Origin: Rhizobium phaseoli
Lineage (GTDB): Bacteria; Pseudomonadota; Alphaproteobacteria; Rhizobiales; Rhizobiaceae
Assembly: GCF_003985125.1 (NCBI RefSeq)
Contig: NZ_ML133567.1
Span: 186,001 to 250,000 of the forward strand
Direction of reading: 5' to 3'
Length of the DNA stretch: 64,000 nt
A program made the position numbers and the translations under genes. Below the pieces are notes generated by a model. The model ran no database searches and was not told the origin of the DNA. It saw nothing but the letters and a program-made list of their open reading frames with translations. Below are positions 40,718-44,585 of this stretch, piece after piece; positions within the stretch are counted from its first letter, which is position 1; the number at the start of each line of letters is the position of its first letter.

Positions 40718-41401
40718 ATGACCGCACGCACCATTCTTTTGGTGGATGACGACGAGGACCTTCGGCAGACGCTAACGGAGCAGTTGTCGCTTTATGAGGA
40801 ATTCACGGTGCTGCAGGAAGCCAACGCCGGCAAGGGTGTTGCGACCGCCCGTTCGACCCCGGTCGATCTGTTGATCATGGATGTCGGCCTGCCCGACATG
40901 GATGGCCGCGAAGCGGTGAAGCTCCTGCGCAAGGGCGGCTTCAAGGCGCCGATCATCATGCTGACCGGTCATGATACGGATTCCGATACGATCCTCGGCC
41001 TCGAAGCCGGCGCCAACGATTATGTCACAAAACCCTTCCGCTTCGCCGTGTTGCTCGCGCGCATTCGCGTGCAGCTGCGCCAGCACGAGCAGAGCGAGGA
41101 CGCAACCTTTACCGTCGGCCCCTATCTCTTCAAGCCGAGCCAGAAGCTGCTGACCACCGACAACGGCCAGAAGATCCGCCTGACGGAAAAGGAAGCGGCG
41201 ATCATCCGTTATCTCTACCGCGCCGAACAGAAGGTCGTCACCCGCGACGTGCTTCTCGAAGAGGTCTGGGGCTACAACTCCGGCGTGACCACGCATACGC
41301 TGGAAACCCATGTCTACCGGCTGCGCCAGAAGATCGAGCGCGACCCCTCCAACGCCGAAATCCTGGTGACGGAAAACGGCGGCTACAAGATCATCCCCTA
41401 G
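40718..41401 (+). CDS. OmpR-family two-component response regulator (CenR-like)
   Basis: A 227-residue regulator. The receiver domain (residues 1-120) has the acidic pair in LLVDDDEDL, phospho-acceptor aspartate in LLIMDVGLPDMDGREAV, then MLTGHD and the lysine in VTKPFR. The winged-helix domain has LTEKEAAIIRYLYRAEQKVVTRDVLLEEVWGYNSGVTTHTLETHVYRLRQKIE. It resembles CenR, the envelope regulator essential in Caulobacter and Sinorhizobium, as I recall that sequence. No kinase gene is adjacent. Its TAG stop codon is the first part of a repeat element. Confidence 0.93.
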   Translation: MTARTILLVDDDEDLRQTLTEQLSLYEEFTVLQEANAGKGVATARSTPVDLLIMDVGLPDMDGREAVKLLRKGGFKAPIIMLTGHDTDSDTILGLEAGANDYVTKPFRFAVLLARIRVQLRQHEQSEDATFTVGPYLFKPSQKLLTTDNGQKIRLTEKEAAIIRYLYRAEQKVVTRDVLLEEVWGYNSGVTTHTLETHVYRLRQKIERDPSNAEILVTENGGYKIIP

Positions 41402-41512
41402 AACAGGATGATTTTAGGCTGGCTCGGCCTGAAATCTGAATCCTGTTCTCAATGAAAGAGTTGGAGCATGATGTCCCCCGAAAACCGCTCACACTTTTCG
41501 GCGTCATGCTCT
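41398..41512 (+). repeat. Two-module palindromic repeat, copy 1
   Basis: Module A (41400-41449): arms AGAACAGGAT / ATCCTGTTCT, with inner GATTTTAGGC / GCCTGAAATC, fold into one long hairpin. Module B (41464-41512): ends GAGCATGATG / TCATGCTCT, with CCGAAAACCGCT and CACTTTTCGG inside. A near-identical copy lies inverted at 43808-43920. Both share CTAGAACAGGAT at the edge. The TAG is the stop codon of the response-regulator gene. Confidence 0.9.
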
Positions 41513-41539
41513 AGAGTATTTTGGTTTTCTCCGAATCAC

Positions 41540-41613
41540 GGAAATGCTCTATCTCTTTGTTTTCATGCAGTTCCGCACGCAAACCGCTCCGCAGTTTTGT
41601 TGGAATTGCTCTA
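41540..41613 (+). repeat. Third repeat module (type C), copy 1
   Basis: TTTGTTTTCATGCAGTTCC at the left and TGGAATTGCTCTA at the right, with an AACCGCT-type core. It matches a longer copy at 51862-51938. Its ends (GCAGTTCC / GGAATTGC) are near-complementary, so it can fold back. Confidence 0.75.
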
Positions 41614-41628
41614 AGGCGAAAAGCCCGC

Positions 41629-42084
41629 ATGGCGCTGACGGACGATATTCATCTGCTCTCGCAGCTTCCGCTGTTCAAGGACATGAGCGAGGACCAGCTG
41701 CGACTGATCGCCTTCGGCGCCGACCGGCGCATGATCGCGGCCGGCCAGATGCTGTTTCGCCAGGGCGCGCCGGCCGAGAGCGCCTATGTCGTCTTGAGCG
41801 GCAGCCTGGCACTCAGCACGACGAGCAGCGACGGCATGCAGCGGGCCGATGCCGTTGCCGGACCCGGCACACTGATTTCCGAGCTGGCGCTGGTGACGCT
41901 AGTCGAGCGCAAGTTCACCGCGATCGCGCGCGAGGACACGAGCATCATCCGCATCACCCGCGCCCTCTTCCACCGGCTGCTCGAGGAATATCCGGATGCG
42001 GCCCGTCTGATCGAAAATCGCATCCGCGACAATCTCGCCGAACTCGCGGCCAAGGCCGCAAGCCAGTTCCACCGGTTCAGCTGA
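41629..42084 (+). CDS. Cyclic nucleotide-binding (CRP-like) domain protein without HTH
   Basis: A 151-residue protein (MALTDDIHLLSQLPLFKDMS) comprising one cNMP-binding beta-barrel: LRLIAFGADRRMIAAGQMLFRQGAPAESAYVVLSGSLALS, then GPGTLISELALVTLVERKFTAIAREDTSIIRI. There is no DNA-binding helix-turn-helix after the barrel, unlike Crp/Fnr regulators, so it may act as a sensor subunit or partner. The phosphate-cassette arginine is not obvious, so ligand binding is uncertain. Confidence 0.85.
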   Translation: MALTDDIHLLSQLPLFKDMSEDQLRLIAFGADRRMIAAGQMLFRQGAPAESAYVVLSGSLALSTTSSDGMQRADAVAGPGTLISELALVTLVERKFTAIAREDTSIIRITRALFHRLLEEYPDAARLIENRIRDNLAELAAKAASQFHRFS

Positions 42085-42114
42085 TCCACACCGATCCGCG
42101 GCAACAAGGAAGCG

Positions 42115-42903
42115 TCAGTCGCGTGCGAAGCTGTCGATTGCTGCGGCGAGCTTCATGAGGTCGGCGGCATAGAAGCCGGCAGCGTTTAGACAGTTCGTCT
42201 CGAGCAGCTTCAGCCCCTCTTCGGTGCGGCAGAGATCGATGACATAGGCCGGCGAGTACCCAGGATTGATATCGACCATGCGCTGTCCGAACGCCAGCGC
42301 ATCCTCGTCGATCTCATGACGGTGGACGACACGCGATCCGTCCTTGTAGAGCGAATAGGTGACGATCCGCCCGTTGACGGCCCACAGACGCCATTCGCGC
42401 ATGATGCGAACGGGCTTGGTGAGCATCAGAAGCGTGTCGTGGCGAAGCGATCCACCCGGGATTTCGTCTTCGTCAAGCGTGAGGACCCTCTCTGCCATGC
42501 GGATGATCTCGCCTGCCGATTTGACATTGCCGGGCTCTTCCTTGCTGTCATCGACGGGACGTAGAAACCATTCCCGCCCATCGTCAGTCAGCTGGGTAGG
42601 GATGTCTCGGAGAGTGAGGAACAACGCGTCGGCTCCGTTCAGGAGATATGGATGCCACGCCTTTTCCTGGACGAAAGGACGCAGCTTGAACACGCCCGGC
42701 TGGTAGCCGTTCGCCTTGGCGTTTCTCCATAGCGTGTAGGAGCCGAACATGATCACCGAGCCCGGATCGGTGACGATCGGCGCCGGGATCAGCTCGCCGA
42801 CAAACGGGACGACCTTGTGCCATGTGTATGCAATACCGAGCCGGTCGAGTGCCTCGGCCAGCTTGTGCGTGTCCTCGAACTCCTGAAGAATCCACTGCGT
42901 CAG
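42115..42903 (-). CDS. ATP-grasp domain-containing protein
   Basis: About 262 residues (TQWILQEFEDTHKLAEALDRLGIAYTWHKVVPF at the N-terminus). The C-terminal half has ATP-grasp-like features: FLRPVDDSKEEPGN, a basic/aromatic segment MREWRLWAVNGRIVTYSLYKDG, and the metal-ligand region AYVIDLCRTEEGLKLLETNCLNAAGFY. I place the start at CTG 42903, whose CTGA overlaps the xthA stop. No ATG or GTG lies between there and the conserved region until well inside. A longer frame runs antisense-free but entirely within xthA. The substrate is unknown. Confidence 0.75.
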   Translation of the reverse strand: MTQWILQEFEDTHKLAEALDRLGIAYTWHKVVPFVGELIPAPIVTDPGSVIMFGSYTLWRNAKANGYQPGVFKLRPFVQEKAWHPYLLNGADALFLTLRDIPTQLTDDGREWFLRPVDDSKEEPGNVKSAGEIIRMAERVLTLDEDEIPGGSLRHDTLLMLTKPVRIMREWRLWAVNGRIVTYSLYKDGSRVVHRHEIDEDALAFGQRMVDINPGYSPAYVIDLCRTEEGLKLLETNCLNAAGFYAADLMKLAAAIDSFARD

Positions 42904-43703
42904 AGATCGAAATGCGCCGTCACCGGCACATGGTCGGAAGGCCGATCCCAGCCGCGGGCTTCCTTCAGGATTTCGATCCGCTTGAGATGCGGCCCGAGAT
43001 CCGATGACGACCAGATATGGTCGAGCCGGCGGCCGCGGTCGGCCGCTTCCCAGTCCTTGGCGCGGTAGCTCCACCAGGTGTAGAGCTTCTCGCTGGCCGG
43101 CACGTGCTGGCGCATGAGATCGAGCCAGGCGCCGCGCTTCATCACCTCGAGCAGCCCGTCGGTTTCGACAGGCGTATGGCTGACGATCTTCAAGAGCTGC
43201 TTGTGCGACCAGACGTCGTGTTCCAGCGGCGCGATGTTGAGGTCGCCGACCAGGATGGCCGAGGTATTGGCCTCGCCATTGGCCTTCAAGAGCTTCATCT
43301 CCTCGATGAAATCGAGTTTATGGCCGAATTTCGGATTGATCGTCCGGTCCGGCTCGTCACCGCCGGCCGGGACGTAAAAATTATGCAGCCGGATGCGGCG
43401 GTTGCCGCGTTCGAAGATCGCCGATAAGTGGCGGGCGTCGCCGACGCCGCAGTAATCCTGCCGGTGATCTTCGGTCAGCGGAATGCGCGAGGCGATCGCC
43501 ACCCCGTGATAACCCTTCTGACCGTGGATGATGATGTGATCATAGCCCATGGCCCGCAAGGGCGCGGCGGGAAAGAGCTCGTTCGGCACCTTGGTTTCCT
43601 GCAGGCAGAGAATGTCAGGCCTGTGCTTGAGAACGAGCTGCTCGACGATCGGCATGCGCAGCCGTACTGAATTGATATTCCAGGTGGTAACCGAAAAGCT
43701 CAT
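42900..43703 (-). CDS. xthA: Exodeoxyribonuclease III
   Basis: A 267-residue AP endonuclease / 3'-5' exonuclease of base-excision repair. Motifs are TWNINSVRLR, LCLQETKVP (metal-binding glutamate), YVPAGGDEPDR, VGDLNIAP (catalytic Asp/Asn) and SDHVPV (catalytic His). Its end overlaps the ATP-grasp gene by four bases if that gene uses the CTG start. Confidence 0.95.
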   Translation of the reverse strand: MSFSVTTWNINSVRLRMPIVEQLVLKHRPDILCLQETKVPNELFPAAPLRAMGYDHIIIHGQKGYHGVAIASRIPLTEDHRQDYCGVGDARHLSAIFERGNRRIRLHNFYVPAGGDEPDRTINPKFGHKLDFIEEMKLLKANGEANTSAILVGDLNIAPLEHDVWSHKQLLKIVSHTPVETDGLLEVMKRGAWLDLMRQHVPASEKLYTWWSYRAKDWEAADRGRRLDHIWSSSDLGPHLKRIEILKEARGWDRPSDHVPVTAHFDL

Positions 43704-43807
43704 GCGGCAAGCCCTTTCACGCTTTCATGAAAGGGCTTTAGAACAAAGGCGAACCGGAGGGAACCGGGCCGCGTGCAAAAGCGTCAGGAGATCAACCGAA
43801 AAGCCTC

Positions 43808-43920
43808 AGAGCATAATGCCGAAAAGTGTAAGCGGTTTTCGGGCGACATCATGCTCTAACTCTTTAATTTAGAACAGGATTCAGATTTTAGGCCTCAAGC
43901 CTAAAATCATCCTGTTCTAG
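43808..43920 (-). repeat. Two-module palindromic repeat, copy 2 (inverted relative to copy 1)
   Basis: Module B at 43808-43857 (AGAGCAT / ATGCTCT ends) and module A at 43871-43918 (AGAACAGGAT / ATCCTGTTCT with inner GATTTTAGGC / GCCTAAAATC, perfectly paired except for a TCA bulge). On the minus strand the order and sequence match copy 1. The CTAG at its edge supplies the TAG stop of the lolA gene (43917-43919). Confidence 0.9.
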
Positions 43921-44585
43921 TCGCGCGATTGCGGCGTGCCGGGAATGCTCTCATAGGGAACCCGGAAGACGCGATCATCGAACTGCATACCGGTCTTGAC
44001 GTTGAAGATCATCACCGAGGTGTCCTTGCCCTGATTGTCGGTGATCGTCCACTGACGCAGGTCATAGGTTTTCGGGTCGAACATCATGGTGATGGTCGAG
44101 TTTCCGAACACCGTATTGTTGCCGAGCGCGATCGTCGTCAGGTCCGACTCTTCCTTGACGCCCTTCACCATGCCGGCCGACAGATCGATATGCTGCGCCA
44201 GCAGCAGGCTGAGCGGCGTCTTGGAGAGCGGATAGAGATCCCAGGTCTTGAGCTTGGTATTGCCGATGGCGACATTCTTGCCGTCGGCGATCACCCGCAT
44301 CGGCGACGGGTCGTCGTAGTTGAAACGCAGCTTGCCGGGGCGCTGGATGAAAAACTTGCCGCCGGTCTGCTCGCCGCGTGGCCCGAACTGCACGAATTCG
44401 CCCTGCATCGTCGTGACGCCGGAGAAATGGTCGGCAATCGCCTGCGCCGTGCCGGAGGCGGGCGCCGCCGCCTGCGCGAGGGCGCCGAAGGGAATGGCGC
44501 TTGCCATCGCAGCAACGGCGAAAGCGCCGAGAAGATCGCGCCGCGTCATCGTCAGGCCGGAGAGGAAGGAATCGGAGTTACGCAT
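43917..44585 (-). CDS. lolA: Outer-membrane lipoprotein carrier protein LolA
   Basis: A 222-residue periplasmic protein with a signal region RRDLLGAFAVAAMASAIPFGALAQA, of Tat-like RR character. The LolA half-barrel follows: AIADHFSGVTTMQGEFVQFGPRGEQTGGKFFIQRPGKLRFNYDDPSPMRVIADGKNVAIGNTKLKTWDLYPLSKTPLSLLL. It ferries lipoproteins from LolCDE to the outer membrane. It is downstream of ftsK on the same strand, 139 bases apart. Confidence 0.93.
   Translation of the reverse strand: MRNSDSFLSGLTMTRRDLLGAFAVAAMASAIPFGALAQAAAPASGTAQAIADHFSGVTTMQGEFVQFGPRGEQTGGKFFIQRPGKLRFNYDDPSPMRVIADGKNVAIGNTKLKTWDLYPLSKTPLSLLLAQHIDLSAGMVKGVKEESDLTTIALGNNTVFGNSTITMMFDPKTYDLRQWTITDNQGKDTSVMIFNVKTGMQFDDRVFRVPYESIPGTPQSRD

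Follow-up and report, generated by a model that had tools for sequence, protein, structure and literature searches.

A palindromic repeat of Rhizobium phaseoli probably inserts at CTAG-like sites and restores stop codons that were already present

Two inverted copies of a palindromic repeat begin at the stop codons of two genes

We analyzed a 64,000-nucleotide (nt) stretch of Rhizobium phaseoli DNA (RefSeq assembly GCF_003985125.1, contig NZ_ML133567.1, positions 186,001 to 250,000; hereafter the window, whose coordinates are used throughout), in which two inverted copies of a short palindromic repeat each begin at the stop codon of a gene, namely, a response-regulator gene and lolA. Copy 1 begins CTAGAACAGGATG...GGCGTCATGCTCTAG at 41398 on the plus strand, and its core extends from G41401 to C41511 (41401..41511, +; 111 nt). 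Copy 2 is the inverted copy, running from 43917 down to 43809 on the minus strand (43809..43917, -; 109 nt). Both cores were delimited by sequence, inverted-repeat search, and genome search and belong to what we take to be the RIME1 type (see below); the inverted-repeat search paired the copies over 101 nt (86%) and 23 nt (100%). An original prediction, made from the sequence alone, had placed two copies here in inverted orientation, and both are present; its right boundary for copy 1 (41512) needs adjustment, as the element ends at 41511, or at 41513 when its TA is included.

The TA to the left of copy 1 (41399..41400, +) and the element's first G together form the TAG (41399-41401, +) that ends a gene (40718..41401, +) encoding a 227-amino-acid response regulator (Response_reg and Trans_reg_C domains). 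Likewise, the left TA of copy 2 (43918..43919, -) and that element's first G form the TAG (43919-43917, -) that ends lolA (43917..44585, -), encoding LolA (PF03548). The TAG is therefore the exact stop of both genes, just as had been predicted, and, as judged from open reading frames (ORFs), domain matches, and relatives, the two stops are the insertion sites of copies 1 and 2, respectively. On the right side, copy 1 is followed by a TA (41512..41513, +), presumably a duplicate of the target TA, and the corresponding dinucleotide at copy 2 (43807..43808, -) reads TG on the minus strand, not TA.

Folding assigned two hairpins to each copy: module A (41400..41449, +, in copy 1; 43870..43919, -, in copy 2) and module B (41461..41514, +, and 43806..43859, -, respectively). 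These hairpins are strong (z-scores of -6.3 and -6.6; 0 of 200 shuffles were as stable). The copies have no coding capacity, being ~110 nt long with all three frames stopped within ~40 nt of the left end. A search of Rfam gave one subthreshold match over copy 1, to a Brucella small RNA (20.4 bits versus a gathering score of 59.8), and a promoter scan found 2 weak promoter-like matches inside the copies, with 1.1 expected in the region.

The end codon of both proteins is unchanged in relatives without the element

The original prediction held that the element supplies the stops of both genes, in which case the gene ends might be shifted in orthologs lacking it. We compared the window locus in 35 same-genus relatives, and the closest of them show no such shift for either gene. 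In all nine closest relatives, which lack copy 1, the response regulator ends at the same codon with TAG (within CCCTAG or, in one case, CCATAG), and all 35 relatives end the protein at this codon (TAG, TAA, or TGA). Similarly, lolA ends with TGA at the same codon in 9/9 closest relatives, with no copy at that stop; in G011, a variant element lies farther downstream. Because both genes stop at an unchanged codon where the element is missing (9/9 closest relatives for each), the stops appear to be older than the element, an outcome that the original prediction had itself named as refuting it. On this comparative evidence, both window stops would have existed before insertion, with the element's first base restoring the stop and leaving the upstream protein unchanged.

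The two copies belong to a family that is probably RIME1

A DNA search in which 40 of 84 first-look candidates were scored revealed at least 40 distinct copies in the own genome (55 rows, 15 of them palindromic echoes); given 40 aligned copies, the resemblance of the two window copies is not a matter of chance. All 40 were aligned, and a second alignment used 37 (omitting the degraded L024, L035, and L040). A covariance model built from these 37 copies gave at least 69 matches in the own genome at E<=0.001, a few of them palindromic echoes, with 150 of 3099 candidates scored. Cores are 105-117 nt long and comprise two palindromes, with compensatory changes at 8 of 28 hairpin pairs. Variant left modules, GATCCGG or GATGCGG, were seen at L119 (the site of own copy L002), at L073, and in own copy L036; at L119 and L036, the variant module is accompanied by a matching complementary arm.

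Among 61 genomes, in a set containing no second genus of the same family and with up to 61 candidates scored per genome, the repeat was matched at E<=1e-8 in 26, i.e., in 26/37 of the genus (own genome included) and in 0/24 from other families of the order. It was also found in 386 of 72,556 plasmid records (360 Rhizobium, 23 Sinorhizobium, and 3 other); the single Sinorhizobium meliloti match listed was more diverged.

RIME1 is reportedly the Rhizobium-specific intergenic mosaic element of Osteras, Stanley and Finan (1995). It is reported to be an intergenic repeat of ~110 bp with two large palindromes and tens of copies in Rhizobium and Sinorhizobium, restricted to rhizobia, and the family described here, with its 105-117-nt cores, two palindromes, and at least 40 copies, resembles it in size, structure, copy number, and rhizobial range. 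By size, the two palindromes, and host range, the repeat is thus probably RIME1, a likeness by description. No RIME1 target duplication or stop-codon insertion was described in the literature searched, a body that did not include the primary RIME papers. The repeat probably belongs to a family that already has a name, and the way in which it inserts is informative.

Stop codons at other copies in the own genome and on plasmids

A genome-wide count of how often the edge TAG is a stop, as suggested by the original prediction, identified it as the exact in-frame stop of a flanking ORF in 10 of the 40 own copies, seven at the left edge (L001, L005, L006, L010, L011, L026, and L033) and three at the right edge (L020, L034, and L040). 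In this count, L006 was included from the first ORF comparison though it lies under the cut-offs of the later one, a frame at the right edge of L030, antisense to a called gene, was excluded, and so were weak frames at the right edges of L005 and L013 (stop at +7). For all 10 exact-stop copies, the aligned codon in relatives without the element is itself a stop (77 of 81 loci, own loci such as L116 being excluded from the count). The four misses are distant lolA orthologs with an apparently slipped alignment, whose printed sequence reads GAC or GAT followed by TGA.

Nine other own copies end a frame inside the element: through a TGA at +10 in L003, L013, L018, L022, and L030, farther inside in L009, L031, and L035, and through a TAG at +2 in L024 (the left ends of L024 and L035 are degraded). 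In these copies the frame is shifted, and the element ends it from inside. Overall, the gene ends that face the element comprise 47 three-prime versus 30 five-prime ends.

From the plasmids, we took a spread of 25 rows, of which 16 were usable, that is, annotated, starting at query base 1-3, and with coverage of >=93%. Dropped rows were H1, H6, H10, and H19 (no annotation), H21 (starting at base 8), H23-H25 (partial), and H22 (72% identity, with a single feature annotated). The element's first TAG coincides exactly with the annotated end of a gene in 7 of the 16 (H2, H3, H5, H8, H11, H15, and H16; H5 and H15 represent one betC site); in one (H12) a gene ends inside the element, and in eight the incomplete gene table lists no gene under the match. 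Alleles without the element again have stops at the same codon, namely, TGA for doeB (2/2 plasmid records), TAA, TAG, and TAA for an ABC-transporter gene (3/3), and TAG for a DedA gene (1/1), the last apparently at the same site as own copy L006. For betC, the four alleles without the element have CAG GAA ahead of a TGA or TAA stop, the four filled alleles read TAG, and the gene measures 1515 bp without and 1509 bp with the element. As this TAG occurs only in the filled alleles, the element has cut two codons from betC. Thus, in a minority of cases elsewhere, i.e., betC and the nine own copies, the element does supply the stop.

Target sequence may account for the excess of stop codons

The original prediction also proposed that the element targets, or is kept at, gene ends. 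We compared the 10/40 exact stops with a null set of 100,703 bases of own DNA, part of which (L110-L112) was chosen because it holds copies, and in which ORF-based gene calls undercall genes (70% coding). Stops made up 34 of the 653 stop-plus-noncoding TA sites (5.2%), a fraction far exceeded by the copies (P=2.9e-5), and 7.3% of the TA sites preceded by C or followed by G (P=4.5e-4). Against CTAG itself, for which 2 of 10 noncoding sites are stops, there was no significant excess (P=0.27, with low power from 10 sites). The excess at stops is therefore upheld relative to random noncoding TA but not relative to CTAG, so that a preference for CTAG as target may account for it without gene-end targeting. 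A sizeable share of the noncoding CTAG sites in this GC-rich genome appear to be stop codons.

Within the window, CTAG shows a threefold depletion (15 occurrences versus 45.5 expected under a Markov-2 model), and 3 of these 15 are edges of the two copies. Among the 40 own copies, the left edge is CTAG in 21, and the right edge is CTAG in 13 and CTAA in 6; the repeat's own edges also include CTGG and CCAG variants.

A mobile element that would insert at TA and rebuild the stop

Taking the above comparisons of sequences together, we consider it likely that the repeat is a nonautonomous palindromic family, resembling miniature inverted-repeat transposable elements (MITEs), which inserts at the TA of CTAG-like sites, and that the stops pre-existed. 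The element would insert at C^TA^G, probably duplicating the TA; with CTAG rare in a GC-rich genome and partly located at stops, insertions would fall on stops. Where the TA belongs to a TAG or TAA stop, the junction would read TA|G, so that the upstream gene would keep its stop at the same codon, and, because both element ends begin with G, the stop would be rebuilt in either orientation. Such an insertion would be silent for the upstream protein and presumably also for gene expression.

TA-target transposition is inferred from the junctions. At copy 1, 7 of the 9 closest relatives, which lack the element, show a flank overlap of exactly 2 bp, and one or more relatives show such an overlap at each of L001, L009, L010, L011, L015, and L019, among others; other relatives at these sites have overlaps of 1 or 3 bp, or small indels. 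Compared with relatives without the element, L002, L028, and L038 are each missing a single base on the right, the A of the expected TA, which resembles an aberration reported for ISY100, an element of the IS630 family (PMC2170065).

The mover would be a transposase of the IS630/Tc1-mariner type, a tentative candidate and the least certain part of the proposal. The genome holds one IS630-type DDE_3 match (92 bits), and an element of this type, bounded by CTAG on either side, was observed at L264:244-1289 (G000:C56). Across genomes, CTAG follows this insertion sequence (IS) in 12 of its 13 distinct right flanks and precedes it in 5 of its 7 distinct left flanks, and its ends start with GAGCA in 12/13 left rows and 13/22 right rows, as does the repeat's right end. 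A look for the ends of the repeat at the IS630 locus turned up CTAG and GAGCA, and no match of greater length. A preference of IS630-type elements for CTAG is given in the title of Tenzen and Ohtsubo 1991, as listed among the references of PMC2170065. The repeat resembles IS630/Tc1-mariner elements and their MITEs in its presumed TA target, its CTAG flanks, and the terminal GAGCA of the IS630-type element of these genomes; it differs from such MITEs in that no internal IS remnant was seen, end similarity is short, and each half is itself a long palindrome.

Several observations weigh against this proposal. From a 2-bp overlap alone, duplication of TA and an element carrying its own TA look alike. 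Among the 22 sites comparable by eye (19 own and 3 plasmid; the other 21 own copies lacked a clean junction), the empty relatives lack TA at 11, with TG or CA at eight (L038 being mixed with TA and L009 having one TC) and other dinucleotides at three, whereas filled copies mostly have TA on the left. The lolA site is one such case, with TGA in 9/9 closest relatives. No movement of the element was observed. Regarding the mover, the similarity between the ends of the repeat and of the IS spans ~5 nt, with the full GAGCATG present in 2 of 22 right rows, and the own-genome copy of the IS630-type element ends in GACATG at the right. Moreover, the IS was matched in 12 of 22 genomes; the 10 without a match include the repeat-rich G006, G011, G018, and G025.

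To account for the non-TA empty sites, the target must have changed to TA before insertion, CTAG must have decayed afterward, or the mechanism must bring in a TA of its own. Decay of CTAG is plausible, because CTAG is depleted and the repeat's edges include the CTGG and CCAG variants. Two copies with non-TA flanks that match on both sides carry no weight here: for the CA/CA flanks of L003, the right side is TA in three relatives, and for the AA/AA flanks of L014 a 2-bp overlap was not borne out. At the site of L014, one relative (L164, in G009) reads CCC AA G AA GG where the own genome reads CCC AA [element] AA GG, possibly an excision footprint or chance.

Alternative origins and roles of the repeat

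The TG or CA at empty sites, together with the two palindromes and the CTAG at their foot, would also be expected if the repeat were a repetitive extragenic palindromic (REP) or bacterial interspersed mosaic element (BIME)-like sequence, its two palindromes corresponding to REP units, moved by a Y1 transposase (HUH, RAYT) at CT^R with no target duplication. At lolA, insertion of AGAAC..GCTCT without duplication would need no extra mutation, and termini of GTAG-family REP palindromes are reported to provide TAG stops often to flanking ORFs (PMC3733652). We nonetheless regard this origin as unlikely: a search of the genome for Y1/RAYT transposases (PF01797) gave 0 matches, with a positive Escherichia coli control, though the mover could have been lost, and the genomes do contain an IS that shares the CTAG flanks. 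REP/GTAG units are 20-40 bp long.

Selection rather than target choice could likewise place the repeat at gene ends, if its hairpin were kept there as a terminator or 3' mRNA stabilizer. A role of the hairpin at the 3' end of the mRNA had also been raised by the original prediction, and of this idea the strong hairpins stand, while a simple scan found no U-tract terminator at copy 1 or copy 2. The compensatory changes at some of the hairpin pairs and the bias toward 3' ends (47 versus 30) fit with selection, as do L003, L013, and L031, where all compared relatives carry the element. Yet at 19 own sites at least one compared relative lacks it, and conserved hairpins would be expected also from the spread of a palindromic element, making a retained function a rather unlikely explanation for the position of the copies.

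A MITE of another IS family, perhaps of the IS5 type, might instead insert with a 4-nt duplication of CTAG or YTAA. MITEPsy1 of Pseudomonas syringae, which is 100 nt long and lies after CTAG or YTAA, duplicated on insertion (as reported in PMC3189936), is similar in size and target, and the sites flanked by CTAG on both sides fit such a duplication. It differs in the 4-nt duplication and in its other presumed parent IS, and we liken the two by description alone. Copies L033 and L010 have CTAG at the left but CTAA at the right, from which it follows that the G probably belongs to the element; we consider a MITEPsy1-like origin quite improbable. The RU-type MITE-like sequences of enterobacteria are comparable as short intergenic sequences with a terminal TA and TA duplication (PMC2759123), a likeness again of description alone and to an unrelated host group.

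Finally, that the two window genes once ended elsewhere and received their stops from the repeat's TAG is very improbable, for although the element contributes its own G to the TAG, betC ends two codons earlier in four plasmids with the element, and frames stop inside the element in 9/40 own copies, the same-codon stops of relatives without it, unless secondary, rule out donation to the response-regulator gene and lolA, and such stops recur at all 10 exact-stop copies and at plasmid doeB and the ABC-transporter gene.

Other palindromic families occupy the same stop codons

Directly downstream of copy 1 lies the remnant of an older, small palindrome of another repeat family, GAGTATTTTGG...CGGAAATGCTC (41514..41549, +), with TA on both sides, as recognized from sequence and relatives. 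In the nine closest relatives (L071-L079), the response-regulator TAG is the edge of this 36-nt palindrome, TA[GAGCATTTCCG...CGGAAATGCTC]TA; hence, the edge of the palindrome, GAGCATTTCC...GGAAATGCTC, forms the stop in these relatives. It is recognizable by eye in 9/9 and by script (<=1 mismatch per arm) in 6/9; the script missed the window remnant because its left arm has decayed. The remaining relatives read at the locus lack the 36-nt palindrome, and the stop is still there. These states suggest an order of events: first the stop, then the small palindrome on that stop, and then copy 1 at the same TA. The 36-nt palindrome occurs at 364 places, spread over 222 plasmid records (Sinorhizobium 107, Rhizobium 102, Shinella 12, and Pararhizobium 1).

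At the site of own copy L010, two relatives (L130 and L131) carry a different palindromic family, TAAAGCGCGTCGC..., in the same stop codon, with TAA rebuilt. This family, which begins TAAAGCRCGTCGCG, is also present at the L021 target in another relative (L213), and its first 16 nt occur at 11 places in the own genome and 0 in the reversed control. By eye, the second half of the TAAAGCRCGTCGCG family resembles module B.

Given that three palindromic families sit on such stops, stop codons may be a general safe harbor for small transposons in these bacteria, a reading that we put forward tentatively, at somewhat under an even chance. TA-inserting families that begin with a purine would rebuild TAG or TAA at no cost, and such families would pile up on stops, even on top of one another.

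The proposed insertion habit would explain in a simple way the frequent start of short bacterial repeats at stop codons, namely, that the rare target CTAG is partly located at stops. Element ends that restore the stop, rather than stop donation or the sensing of gene ends, would explain this habit, and the sites without the element correct the story of repeats that supply stops. A candidate type of transposase can now be offered for a repeat family with no reported mover in the literature searched, and the results point to places where recent insertions of the repeat may be sought.

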